DNA of 64,000 nt from Pseudoxanthomonas sp. (GTDB lineage Bacteria; Pseudomonadota; Gammaproteobacteria; Xanthomonadales; Xanthomonadaceae), in assembly GCF_002863005.1 (NCBI RefSeq), contig NZ_PKDG01000009.1, positions 62,001 through 126,000 on the forward strand. Reading direction: 5' to 3'. A program made the translations under genes and the position numbers. This document shows positions 6,011-10,472 of this stretch, in pieces. The stretch's first letter is position 1; the number at the start of each line of letters is the position of its first letter. Below the pieces are notes generated by a model. That model was not told the DNA's origin. It saw only the letters and a program-made list of their open reading frames with translations, and ran no database searches.

Positions 6011-6338
6011 ATCTGGTCTGGAATGGATTATCCCCGACGACGGCCCCCGGCTCGCATTCCACGCCCGGAACACTCCCATTAGGGCAATTGGAGGGAGGAC
6101 GATCATGGAAACCGTGACTGCTTGGCAAGCTGACAAGGCCGCGAGGTACCTTCAGACACTGTTCGCCGGCGCGGACGGGGGCTAGGCGGCTTCCGCGGCC
6201 GGTCGACCCCCGTACTGACACCATCTAGCAGGTGCTGACCCCGCGCCAGCTTCAGCTGACAGGATTAGGCTGGTGGGAGAGCCAGCGGGGAGACGGATCC
6301 AAATCGTGGAACCCGCATGGCAAGGCCGCCCCTTGTTC
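6011..6338. other. non-coding stretch, nothing recognised
   Basis: About 330 bases between the BPSL0761-family gene and the nrd promoter. Only short overlapping open frames exist, without supporting ribosome sites or family features. No RNA gene or repeat was recognised. It marks the border between the low-GC island and the nrd regulatory region. Confidence 0.5.
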
Positions 6339-6339
6339 C

Positions 6340-6355
6340 ACACAACATTTGGTGT
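6340..6355 (+). promoter_or_regulatory. NrdR box 1 (candidate)
   Basis: ACACAACATTTGGTGT matches the NrdR consensus (ACACWATATATWGTGT) at 13 of 16 positions with intact CAC/GTG half-sites. Its last base overlaps the -35 element. NrdR represses ribonucleotide reductase genes when (d)ATP is abundant. Confidence 0.72.
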
Positions 6356-6383
6356 TGACGCTTCTGTACACCCCCACTATCTT
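6355..6383 (+). promoter_or_regulatory. sigma-70 promoter of nrdAB
   Basis: TTGACG at 6355-6360 and TATCTT at 6378-6383 are separated by 17 bp. This predicts transcription starting near 6390, just before the first paired bases of the cobalamin riboswitch. Both elements overlap candidate NrdR boxes. Confidence 0.7.
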
Positions 6384-6387
6384 GTGG
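6372..6387 (+). promoter_or_regulatory. NrdR box 2 (candidate, degenerate)
   Basis: CCCCACTATCTTGTGG matches the NrdR consensus at about 11 of 16 positions. It lies exactly 32 bp from box 1 (three helical turns), the spacing usual for paired NrdR boxes, and it covers the -10 element. Alone it would be weak; the spacing is the main support. Confidence 0.58.
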
Positions 6388-6588
6388 CCGTCGGTTCCGG
6401 TGGTCGCAAGCCACGGGATTAAAACGGGAAGCCGGTGACGCGTTCGCGCCACTCCGGCACTGCCCCGCAGCGGTAATTGGGAACGAACCCGCCACACAGC
6501 ACTGAGGCCCCATGCCTCGGGAAGCGGCGGACGTAGGAAGAAGGCTCGCCCTTCGCGCCCATGAGTCCGAAGACCTGCCGACAGCCGC
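6388..6588 (+). ncRNA. cobalamin (adenosylcobalamin) riboswitch
   Basis: All conserved blocks of the B12 aptamer are present in order: GGTTCCGG (6393-6400), GGGATTAAAACGGGAAGCCG (6414-6433), CCGGCACTGCCCCGCAGCGG (6454-6473), CACTGAGG with GCCTCGGGAAG (about 6500-6523), and the terminal box ATGAGTCCGAAGACCTGCCG (6561-6580). It sits between the nrd promoter and nrdA on the same strand. Binding of adenosylcobalamin is expected to reduce nrdAB expression. No T-tract terminator is visible downstream, so the switch probably acts on translation or through Rho. Confidence 0.93.
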
Positions 6589-6765
6589 GCGATGCACACC
6601 GCGCGGTGCCGGCCGCGGAATCTCCGGGGGGAGAGGGCTGGCGAAGCAGGGCGCCCGCAGTCCGTCTGCGCGGTCGCGTCTCCTGCGACGCCGCTTCCCC
6701 ACTGTGATCCTCCATCCGGCCTTGCGCAGCCCCGCGAGGGACGGGCCGCCGAGTGCACCACGCAT
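6589..6765 (+). other. nrdA leader downstream of the aptamer (expression platform region)
   Basis: 177 bases of GC-rich untranslated leader between the aptamer and the nrdA ribosome site. It holds short hairpins, for example TCTCC/GGAGA near 6619-6632, that could pair alternately with the aptamer or with the GGAGG ribosome site at 6766-6770. No intrinsic terminator was seen. Confidence 0.45.
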
Positions 6766-6776
6766 GGAGGAATCTC

Positions 6777-9221
6777 GTGACCCAGACCGACAGCGCCGTC
6801 GCCGACGCCGGCACCACTCCGTCCCAGAAGGACGCGTTCTCGCTGACCCCGCCGCCCACCGCCACCGCGATGAGCGTGACCAAGCGCAACGGCGGCCGCG
6901 AGCCGGTGGACCTCAACAAGATCGTGCGCGCCGTACAGCGAAACTGCGAAGGCCTGCACGCCATCGATCCGATGCGCGTGGCCACGCGCACCATCTCCGG
7001 CCTGTACGACGGCGCCAGCACGCGCGAACTGGACGAACTGTCGATCCGCACCGCCGCGCTGCTGACCGGCGAAGAACCCGAATACAGCCGACTGGCCGCA
7101 CGCCTGCTGGCCGCCTACATCGCCAAGGAAGTGACCGGCCAGGAGATCCATGCGTTCTCGCAGTCGGTCACCCGCGGCCACGAGGTCGGCCTGATCAACG
7201 ACCGCCTGCTGAACTTCGTGCAGACCAATGCGCGCAAGCTCAACGACGCGCTGGACGCCTCGCTCGACCTGCACTTCGACTACTTCGGCCTGCGCACGCT
7301 GTACGACCGCTACCTGCTGCGCCACCCGCACACGCGCAAGGTCATCGAGACGCCGCAGCAGTTCTTCCTGCGCATCGCATGCGCGCTGAGCGAGGACGTG
7401 CCGGAAGCGCTGGCGCTGTACCGCCGCATGGGCAACCTGGACTACCTGCCCAGCTCGCCGACGCTGTTCAACAGCGGCACGACGCACGAGCAGCTGTCGT
7501 CGTGCTTCCTGCTGGACTCGCCGCAGGACACGCTGGAATCCATCTATGCCAAGTACGGCGACATCGCCCAGCTGAGCAAGTTCAGCGGCGGCATCGGCGT
7601 GAGCTACACCCGCGTGCGTTCGCGCGGCTCACTGATCAAGTCCACCAACGGCCACAGCAACGGTATCGTGCCGTGGCTGAAGACGCTGGATTCCTCGGTC
7701 GCGGCGGTCAACCAGGGCGGCAAGCGCAAGGGCGCGGCCTGCGTGTACCTGGAGACCTGGCACGCCGACATCGAGGACTTCCTGGAGCTGCGCGACAACA
7801 CCGGCGACGAAGCGCGCCGCACCCACAACCTCAACCTGGCCAACTGGGTGCCGGACCTGTTCATGAAGCGCGTCGAGGCCGACCAGGAATGGTCGCTGTT
7901 CGATCCGCGCGTGGTGCCGGAGCTGACCGACCTGTACGGCGCCGCCTTCGAACTGGCGTACACGCAGGCGGAACTGCAGGGCAAAGCGGTCAAGACCATC
8001 CCGGCCCGCAAGTTGTACGGCCGGATGATGCGCACGCTGGCCGAGACAGGCAACGGCTGGATGACGTTCAAGGACAAGTGCAACGCAGCCAGCAACCAGA
8101 CGCTGCGCGCGGGCAATGTCATCCACCTGTCGAACCTCTGCACCGAGATCCTCGAGGTCACCTCGGCGGAAGAGACGGCCGTGTGCAACCTGGGGTCGAT
8201 CAACCTGGGGCGCCATTTCGATAGCGATCCCGATACCGGCCGCACCTGGTTCGATTTCGACAAGCTGGCCGAGACCGTGCGCCTGGCCGTTCGCCAGCTG
8301 GACCGCGTGATCGACCTGAACTTCTATCCGATCGAAACGGCGCGCCGCGGCAACCTGCGCTGGCGTCCGGTGGGCCTGGGCTGCATGGGCCTGCAGGACG
8401 TGTTCTTCAAGCTGCGCCTGCCGTTCGACAGCGCCGAGGCGCGCGCGCTGTCGGCGAAGATCGCCGAGACCATCTACTTCCATGCGCTGGAAACCTCGGT
8501 GGAGCTGGCGCAGGAACGCGGCCGCCATCCCTCGTTCGCCGACACCCGCGCGGCCAACGGCGAACTGCAGTTCGATGCCTGGAACATCAAGCCGGAGAAT
8601 GCCGACCGCTGGGAGGCCCTGCGCGCGCGCATCAAGGAACACGGCCTGCGCAACTCGCTGCTGATCGCCATCGCGCCGACTGCCACCATCGCCTCGATCG
8701 CCGGCTGCTACGAATGCGTGGAGCCGCAGGTGTCCAACCTGTTCAAGCGTGAGACGCTGTCGGGCGATTTCCTGCAGGTCAACCGCTACCTGGTGGACGA
8801 GCTGAAGAAGCTGGGCCTGTGGACGCCGGAAACACGCGACGCGATCAAGCTGGCGGAAGGCTCCATCCAGGGCATCGCGCAGATCCCGGAAACGTTGCAG
8901 CAGGTCTACCGCACGGCGTGGGAACTGCCGATGCGCTCGCTGATCGACATGGCCGCCGACCGTGGCGCCTTCATCGACCAGTCGGCCTCGCTCAACCTGT
9001 TCATGGAAAGCCCGAACATCGGTGCGATGTCGTCGATGTACATGTACGCGTGGAAGCGGGGCATCAAGACCACCTACTACCTGCGCTCGCGCCCGGCCAC
9101 CCGCATCGCCAAGACCACGGTCAGCAGCGCAGCGGTCACCGCGCCGCAGCGCGAGTACACGCCTACGGAGGCGATTGCGTGTTCGCTCGAGAACCCCGAA
9201 GCCTGCGAGGCCTGCCAGTAA
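6777..9221 (+). CDS. nrdA: class Ia ribonucleoside-diphosphate reductase, large subunit
   Basis: 814 residues. It reduces ribonucleoside diphosphates to deoxyribonucleotides as NrdA2 with NrdB2. The GTG at 6777 is chosen because GGAGG lies 6 bp upstream. An ATP-cone is at about 33-125 (SVTKRNGG...). Catalytic residues are visible: C243 (SSCFLLD), N453/C455/E457 in SNLCTEI, C470 in VCNLGSINL, and the C-terminal shuttle pair CEAC (810-813). nrdB follows after 231 bp containing a B-type repeat. Expression is probably controlled by paired NrdR boxes and a cobalamin riboswitch. The enzyme itself does not use B12, so this riboswitch implies a second, class II reductase in the genome. Confidence 0.96.
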   Translation: MTQTDSAVADAGTTPSQKDAFSLTPPPTATAMSVTKRNGGREPVDLNKIVRAVQRNCEGLHAIDPMRVATRTISGLYDGASTRELDELSIRTAALLTGEEPEYSRLAARLLAAYIAKEVTGQEIHAFSQSVTRGHEVGLINDRLLNFVQTNARKLNDALDASLDLHFDYFGLRTLYDRYLLRHPHTRKVIETPQQFFLRIACALSEDVPEALALYRRMGNLDYLPSSPTLFNSGTTHEQLSSCFLLDSPQDTLESIYAKYGDIAQLSKFSGGIGVSYTRVRSRGSLIKSTNGHSNGIVPWLKTLDSSVAAVNQGGKRKGAACVYLETWHADIEDFLELRDNTGDEARRTHNLNLANWVPDLFMKRVEADQEWSLFDPRVVPELTDLYGAAFELAYTQAELQGKAVKTIPARKLYGRMMRTLAETGNGWMTFKDKCNAASNQTLRAGNVIHLSNLCTEILEVTSAEETAVCNLGSINLGRHFDSDPDTGRTWFDFDKLAETVRLAVRQLDRVIDLNFYPIETARRGNLRWRPVGLGCMGLQDVFFKLRLPFDSAEARALSAKIAETIYFHALETSVELAQERGRHPSFADTRAANGELQFDAWNIKPENADRWEALRARIKEHGLRNSLLIAIAPTATIASIAGCYECVEPQVSNLFKRETLSGDFLQVNRYLVDELKKLGLWTPETRDAIKLAEGSIQGIAQIPETLQQVYRTAWELPMRSLIDMAADRGAFIDQSASLNLFMESPNIGAMSSMYMYAWKRGIKTTYYLRSRPATRIAKTTVSSAAVTAPQREYTPTEAIACSLENPEACEACQ

Positions 9222-9452: not shown

Positions 9453-10472
9453 ATGTCCGTACACCCCAAGCAGATGTTGCTAGACCCCGGTTTCGAACTG
9501 ACGCTGCGCCCGATGCGCTACCCGCAGTTCTATGACATGTACCGCGACGCCATCAAGAACACGTGGACGGTGGAAGAGATCAACTTCCAGATCGACATCA
9601 CCGACCTGCACTCGAAGATGACGCCGGCCGACCGCCACCTGATCCACCGGCTGGTCGCGTTCTTCGCCACCGGCGATTCCATCGTGTCGAACAACCTGGT
9701 GCTGAACCTGTACCAGCACCTCAACGCGCCCGAAGCCCGCATGTACCTGTCGCGGCAGCTCTACGAAGAAGCGCTGCACGTGCAGTTCTACCTGACCCTG
9801 CTGGACAACTACCTGCCCGACCCGTCGGAGCGCTTCAAGGCGTTTGCGGCGGTGGAGAACATCCCGGCGATCAAGAAGAAGGCCGACTTCTGCTTCAAGT
9901 GGATCGATTCGTTGCAGGACATGAAGCGGATCGAGACGCGCGACCAGCGCCGGCAGTTCCTGCTCAACCAGATCTGCTTCGCCGCGTGCATCGAAGGCCT
10001 GTTCTTCTTCGCCGCGTTCGCCTACGTGTACTACTTCCGCTCGCGCGGCCTGCTTCCCGGCCTGGCCAGCGGCACCAACTGGGTGTTCCGCGACGAGAGC
10101 TGCCACATGGAGTTCGCGTTCGAGTGCGTGCGCACCGTGCGCGAGGAAGAACCGGACCTGTTCGACGACGTCATGCAGCAGCAGGTCTACGACATGCTGG
10201 AAGAGGCGATCGAGTGCGAAGTGCAGTTCGCCGAGGACGTGCTGTCCGGCGGCGTGGCCGGCATCTCGACGCGCGACATGCGCCAGTACCTGCAGCACTG
10301 CGCGGACCAGCACTTCGCCAAGCTCGGCATGCCCAAGCGCTACGACGTGCGCAACCCGCTGCCCTTCATGGAGCTGCAGGACGTGCAGGAGCTGACCAAC
10401 TTCTTCGAGCGCCGCGTGTCCGCCTACCAGCTGGGCGTGCAGGGCGAGGTCGGCTTCGACCACGCGTTCTAG
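9453..10472 (+). CDS. nrdB: class Ia ribonucleoside-diphosphate reductase, small subunit
   Basis: 339 residues. It carries the di-iron/tyrosyl radical cofactor that generates the thiyl radical in NrdA. Ligands follow the NrdB pattern: D75 (FATGDSIVSN), E106 and H109 in EEALHVQFY, E181 (CIEGLFFF), E215 and H218 in RDESCHMEF. The radical tyrosine Y113 lies four residues after H109, so this is a Tyr-radical enzyme and not a Tyr-less class Ic form. It is co-oriented with nrdA and presumably shares its promoter and riboswitch. An A-type repeat pair follows. Confidence 0.95.
   Translation: MSVHPKQMLLDPGFELTLRPMRYPQFYDMYRDAIKNTWTVEEINFQIDITDLHSKMTPADRHLIHRLVAFFATGDSIVSNNLVLNLYQHLNAPEARMYLSRQLYEEALHVQFYLTLLDNYLPDPSERFKAFAAVENIPAIKKKADFCFKWIDSLQDMKRIETRDQRRQFLLNQICFAACIEGLFFFAAFAYVYYFRSRGLLPGLASGTNWVFRDESCHMEFAFECVRTVREEEPDLFDDVMQQQVYDMLEEAIECEVQFAEDVLSGGVAGISTRDMRQYLQHCADQHFAKLGMPKRYDVRNPLPFMELQDVQELTNFFERRVSAYQLGVQGEVGFDHAF

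Follow-up and report, generated by a model that had tools for sequence, protein, structure and literature searches.

Borovok et al. reportedly described, in 2006, a cobalamin riboswitch at the nrdABS operon of Streptomyces coelicolor. For Streptomyces, the available part of one published account places the class I operon nrdABS under a cobalamin riboswitch beside NrdJ, describes the control as transcriptional, and states that NrdAB is thought to serve when adenosylcobalamin is unavailable (PMC4991794); the precedent that the earlier note on this DNA had drawn on, B12-controlled class I nrd genes beside NrdJ, is therefore a published one. Partial texts of further sources describe B12-elements before nrdDG in delta-proteobacteria with NrdJ, where the proposal is that inhibition of the B12-independent reductase sets in when its B12-dependent isozyme is functional (PMC545781), the metE/metH pair, in which the cofactor-independent isozyme is under a B12 riboswitch with an L5-L13 kissing loop (PMC9600662), and B12 riboswitches on B12-independent isozymes in general (PMC2211319). 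For Pseudomonas aeruginosa, the accessible portion of the source states that B12 affects nrd genes independently of a B12 riboswitch (PMC5962746). A partial literature search found no published report of a B12 switch at nrdAB of Xanthomonadaceae, which is no proof of absence. The regulatory principle is already known, and the nrdAB case of Pseudoxanthomonas presented here is well supported at the sequence level.

We analysed a 64-kb stretch of Pseudoxanthomonas sp. DNA, hereafter the window, to which all coordinates refer; all features described lie on its + strand. The sole match above any Rfam gathering score in the window was the cobalamin riboswitch aptamer RF00174 at 6375-6596, which cmscan scored at 109.4 bits (E 1.7e-26, gathering score 31.5) over model positions 1-189 of 189. 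The search confirmed the earlier proposal that a B12 aptamer precedes nrdA, and the interval proposed for it, 6388-6588, forms the core of the match. Besides the covariance-model match, the element has the segment that we take to be the B12 box (6564-6579 in the RF00174 alignment) and a conserved L5. The latter belongs to the P5-L5 segment ACTGCCCCGCAGCGG (6459-6473), with L5 assigned from the Rfam structure line, and the L5 segment TGCCCCGCA was found in all 52 riboswitch leaders. A first pattern search for L5 caught mostly loops in other parts of the leaders and was rejected, the true L5 being TGCCCCGCA by the Rfam structure line. From the aptamer to the nrdA start (GTG at 6777) the distance is 180 nt.

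The nrdA gene (6777-9221, GTG start) encodes a class I ribonucleotide reductase alpha subunit of 814 aa with one ATP-cone, and nrdB (9453-10472) a class I beta subunit of 339 aa (PF00268). NrdA scored 732.8 against a cut-off of 341.05 for TIGR02506, the NrdE/NrdA equivalog. In NrdB, Tyr113 aligns with human p53R2, and the metal-ligand motifs are as expected (Asp75, Glu106, His109, Glu181, Glu215 and His218), with roles that we assume to be those of E. coli NrdB. Tyr113 and these motifs agree with the class Ia assignment that had been made from the sequence, but the cut-offs of the NCBIfam class 1a models PRK09103 and PRK09101 were far from reached (311.8 vs 813 for NrdA and 58.1 vs 346 for NrdB), so that "class I, Tyr-type" is the safer label. 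Among the best 80 matches, the closest named genome by NrdA is that of Pseudoxanthomonas japonensis (96%).

The source genome (3.96 Mb in 63 contigs) holds two reductase large subunits by PF02867, NrdA and, on another contig, NrdJ. The nrdJ gene that had been predicted to lie elsewhere in the genome thus exists: with 583.5 bits against the curated TIGR02504 cut-off of 399.95 its product is an adenosylcobalamin-dependent reductase, and its NPCGE motif aligns with that of the B12-dependent NrdJ of T. maritima, to which the protein is similar. A 266-aa TSCPD protein is encoded about 1.1 kb downstream of nrdJ, which presumably fits a split NrdJa/NrdJb enzyme of the Pseudomonas type. A class III reductase was set aside as the partner, since the search for NRDD (PF13597) gave no match in the source genome. 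Cobalamin riboswitches number three in all, and the two others (L007 and L008, on one contig) each precede TonB-dependent receptor genes. One of these receptor genes is followed by BtuR/CobO-, CobB/CobQ-, CobD/CbiB-, aminotransferase-, DBI_PRT- and CobS-type genes, which by their types are a late-pathway or salvage cobalamin set. The genome therefore combines a riboswitch before a B12-independent reductase with a B12-dependent reductase.

As far as the partial sources allow comparison, the locus resembles nrdABS of S. coelicolor in that a cobalamin riboswitch precedes a class I reductase and the genome also holds a class II NrdJ. It differs from that actinobacterial, transcriptionally controlled operon with its nrdS gene in being gammaproteobacterial, in its likely SD-sequestering platform and in its NrdR-box-like sites. 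The delta-proteobacterial nrdDG case, in the available description, follows the same proposed logic with a class III enzyme, whereas here the target is class I NrdAB and a class III match is absent. With the metE/metH switch, again as partially documented, the locus shares the isozyme principle, the enzyme being methionine synthase there and ribonucleotide reductase here.

With high confidence, given the sequence evidence, we propose that a B12 riboswitch lowers NrdAB when B12 is available. The nrdAB 5' leader would be a classical RF00174-type adenosylcobalamin riboswitch. At high B12, with the cofactor bound, L5 (CCCC) would kiss a G-rich loop of the expression platform, the candidate L13 of hairpin C (6729-6746), and the kissing interaction would stabilise a helix between an anti-Shine-Dalgarno (anti-SD, 6706-6715) and the Shine-Dalgarno (SD, 6764-6771) segment, so that translation of NrdAB would fall. 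NrdAB could be turned down under these conditions because NrdJ can provide the dNTPs; under B12 scarcity, an unpaired SD would allow NrdAB to be made. The switch between reductases that the earlier note had envisaged would also have an oxygen side, a part of it that is inference.

Transcription probably starts close to the aptamer. A sigma-70-like promoter, TTGACG-17-TATCTT (6355-6383), was found once against 0.1 expected from shuffles; it would place the transcript start at about 6390, essentially at the aptamer, and the first bases of the RF00174 match are therefore probably promoter DNA. Two NrdR-box-like palindromes flank and overlap this promoter, ACACAACATTTGGTGT at 6340-6355 and, 32 bp after it and overlapping the -10 element, CCCCACTATCTTGTGG at 6372-6387. 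The pair was scored by hand on what we take to be the NrdR-box consensus, and in riboswitch leaders the search covered 160 bp around the aptamer start. In 52 of 52 riboswitch leaders scored, the Rfam start follows the best pair by 32 to 37 bp; the window scored 30.5 of 35.6 and L052 was weak (21.1), against a median of 19.0, a 95th percentile of 21.4 and a maximum of 31.2 for 260 random windows from riboswitch loci, a background that may itself overlap true sites. The 29 riboswitch-less relatives have best pairs of 26.5-31.2 within 400 bp before nrdA, the pair being shifted in L030. An NrdR gene is present in the source genome. The NrdR-box-like pair at the nrdA promoter thus points to control by dNTP level as well as by B12: NrdR would probably repress the same promoter when dNTPs are plentiful, and together with the riboswitch this would let the nrdAB operon read two signals.

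Between the aptamer and nrdA, the minimum free energy (MFE) fold pairs the anti-SD segment GATCCTCCAT (6706-6715) with 6764-6774, which includes the SD segment ATGGAGGA (6764-6771); hairpin C, GCCCCGCGAGGGACGGGC (6729-6746), is formed within the anti-SD/SD helix in the same fold. The folding energy of the leader was no better than that of shuffled sequences (z 0.68; aptamer plus leader, z -1.36), and the predicted fold therefore serves only to show possible pairing. The arms of hairpin C vary yet stay complementary, with a mean stem score of 6.90 over 52 leaders (at least 5 in 46 of them) vs 4.71 (sd 0.21, highest of 500 = 5.40) when the 3' parts were swapped between species. For pairing of the SD region with the leader upstream of it, the best helix scored 17.40 in the 52 leaders vs 15.86 after swapping (sd 0.35, highest of 300 = 16.87) and 17.41 vs 15.63 (highest 17.18) in 28 short leaders; the score uses the strongest helix anywhere in a 20-nt SD region, and in several leaders (e.g. 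L010, L047 and L079) that helix leaves out the SD. Both swap controls leave the relatedness of the leaders in place. Hairpin D beside the SD showed no covariation (3.48 vs 3.59 swapped).

A paired hairpin C inside the anti-SD/SD helix makes translational control most likely, and on this sequence evidence we regard regulation at the translational level as probable. That the riboswitch is real and acts instead at transcription, by termination (Rho-dependent or otherwise) and not at the ribosome-binding site, appears unlikely: no terminator-like site was found in 6150-6900 (a weak result, with 0.4 expected by chance, on which terminator-based control was set aside), and the SD-region helices outscored all 300 swaps, although transcriptional control is what the available part of PMC4991794 describes for Streptomyces nrdABS, and although the leader is both long and rich in GC.

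The identity of L13 is less clear-cut. Just 3' of the aptamer lies hairpin A (6620-6635) with the G-rich loop ATCTCCGGGGGGAGAG, which is absent from the MFE fold. Its loop region CGGGG is perfectly complementary to L5 CCCCG, a better fit than the imperfect one of the hairpin C loop, and its position directly 3' of the aptamer would also suit an L13, leaving hairpin C with another role. We nevertheless consider this assignment doubtful, because the G loop of hairpin A is kept in five of the 17 riboswitch-less leaders viewed (L019, L021, L027, L030 and L035) and in G096, whereas 28 of the 29 riboswitch-less leaders, 25 of these 29 belonging to one clade, lack CGNGGG at the place of hairpin C. 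Specifically, 46/52 riboswitch leaders vs 1/29 riboswitch-less ones have CGNGGG in the stretch from 85 to 34 nt ahead of the start codon, and in L047 and L051, two of the six misses, the motif lies just 3' of the searched stretch. Taking the complementarity of hairpin C, the distribution of CGNGGG and the presence of L5 in every riboswitch leader together, we lean towards hairpin C as the likely L13.

We then compared the distribution of the riboswitch with that of NrdJ in two samples. The first, of named relatives, comprised the 80 top-scoring NrdA loci out of at least 577 matches in genome contigs; 51 of these 80 have RF00174 upstream of nrdA. NrdJ was called from a PF02867 match of about 408-445 bits spanning positions 3-522, TIGR02504 confirmation being confined to the source genome; 17 stretches with such matches align with the source NrdJ at 80.6-97.7% per segment. 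Counting 50 of the 51 riboswitch-bearing and 28 of the 29 riboswitch-less genomes (L049 and L077 were left out), we found NrdJ in 47/50 vs 1/28. The 47 include G205 (L105), in which the NrdJ match is split into two pieces on neighbouring stretches, and the count leaves out a third PF02867 match of 440 bits over 1-523 in the riboswitch-less G170. A riboswitch accompanied by no NrdJ match was seen in L056, L083 and L087, assemblies of unstated completeness, of which L056 and L087 are metagenome bins; the reverse, NrdJ with no riboswitch at nrdA, was seen in L027 (G161). The L083 record is named Tolypothrix campylonemoides, a cyanobacterium, yet it carries a Lysobacteraceae-like nrdA preceded by the riboswitch, and it is probably a contaminated assembly. 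Separately, in two Lysobacter loci the region downstream of nrdA holds another cobalamin riboswitch match (L077:6588-6765 and L079:6699-6914).

For the second sample, covering the order, 73 of 151 genomes had a class I NrdA row and were kept and 78 had none and were dropped; among those dropped, G017, G019 and G138 have matches in pieces. A riboswitch was called linked when RF00174 lay 300-2500 bp upstream of the class I match; the second of the two RF00174 lists for this sample was made with stricter filters and lost weak matches. NrdJ was present in 42/42 linked vs 2/31 unlinked genomes, the two being G096 and G006. The nrdA match of G006 lies 1,026 bp from a contig end and the match of G113 1,167 bp from a contig start, so that a riboswitch would not be reliably visible in either, and G006 was rejected as an exception on this ground. 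The two samples share some genomes (G068 and G175 coincide in their coordinates) and are therefore not independent. In both samples, riboswitch and NrdJ mostly occur together, and the relatives thus mostly fit the prediction of a B12 switch. As a side observation, ten genomes of family f8 (G036, G050, G057, G071, G078, G083, G088, G093, G098 and G113) carry a second PF02867 match of 314-330 bits over the whole profile with neither the NrdA nor the NrdJ pattern.

These counts represent few independent events. Since one Stenotrophomonas clade makes up 25 of the 29 riboswitch-less loci, the ratios of 1/28 for NrdJ and 1/29 for CGNGGG do not stand for that many separate events. A quick NrdA tree of 81 rows requires 4 changes for the riboswitch and 7 for NrdJ, and 3 independent pairs can be drawn from it. 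With pairs drawn at random 200 times, NrdJ went the same way as the riboswitch in 2.6 and the opposite way in none (median p of the sign test 0.25); when L056, L083 and L087 were removed, the figures were 3.0 and none.

Riboswitch-less leaders appear to form a series of decay, which we read by eye in 17 of the 29. In L043 and L044 a remnant of the aptamer (GGGAAGC, CACTGCCCCGCAACGGTA) is left that falls below the gathering score; no B12 box was seen by eye in their leaders, and neither has NrdJ. In L019, L021, L027, L030 and L035 the aptamer is gone and hairpin A with its G loop is kept, a state also seen in the G096 leader, and in leaders of the S. maltophilia type, such as L022, both aptamer and hairpin A are lost. 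L027 and G096, both Stenotrophomonas-like, retain an NrdJ with an insertion (seen by sequence in the L027 genome and by match length in G096) and no nrdA riboswitch, which indicates that the riboswitch can be lost first. G061, which lies outside the NrdA tree and whose sole match is of a second class I type, has neither NrdJ nor a linked riboswitch; its leader shows remnants, with the hairpin A loop changed too. In L089-L092 we noted that NrdJ has a large insertion, apparently an intein, at its active-site NPC/GE motif.

Riboswitch and NrdJ were probably both ancestral in the group. This, and the small number of independent losses, would also be expected if the aptamer were a relic that still matches the model although it has ceased to regulate nrdAB, its co-occurrence with NrdJ reflecting shared ancestry. 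We find such a relic very improbable in view of the 109.4-bit match to the full RF00174 model, the retention of TGCCCCGCA in 52/52 leaders, the absence of any independent pair in which NrdJ runs opposite to the riboswitch, and the persistence of the leader even before a different reductase.

The last point concerns G101, G126, G111 and G141 (L109-L112), where a different class I reductase domain follows the riboswitch at a distance of about 1 kb. The large subunit of this second type is 30-33% identical to NrdA of the window and the small subunit 23-25% to NrdB, and the G101 enzyme passes another NCBIfam equivalog, PRK09209. Nevertheless, 413-471 bp of the four leaders, comprising promoter, aptamer and platform, align with the window at 75-77%, and in two of the four genomes the alignment extends into the first codons. 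In global alignments with free ends, which flatter identity, the second-type leaders are 79-87% identical to 13 chosen first-type leaders, themselves 80-94% identical to each other. What we take to be a purU-like gene lies downstream in L110 and L111, as in the window, and a presumed thioesterase-like gene in L111; the other two loci have no neighbour from the first 30 kb of the window. Among genomes with the second-type enzyme, a linked riboswitch occurs in 4/4 with NrdJ and 0/7 lacking it.

The simplest reading of these leaders looks like an exchange of the operon behind a retained leader. The leader may then be an inherited unit, a two-signal cassette for dNTP and B12 made up of promoter, NrdR-box-like pair, riboswitch and SD platform, that stayed while the class I reductase was exchanged and that decays stepwise when a B12-dependent partner is lacking; judging from the sequences, we see the chances of this as evenly balanced. 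If it is true, hairpin A, which some leaders keep after losing the aptamer, would have a second, B12-independent role.

A B12 switch at nrdAB would extend a known but thinly documented regulatory arrangement, the repression of B12-independent dNTP synthesis by B12, to a large share of the sampled Lysobacterales genomes. These genomes also offer a natural experiment, with lineages that have both parts or neither, partly decayed leaders, two genomes in which NrdJ was kept and the riboswitch lost, and lineages with the control region retained before a different enzyme. Given this variety, whether the presence of NrdJ keeps the riboswitch is a question directly testable in common laboratory strains.
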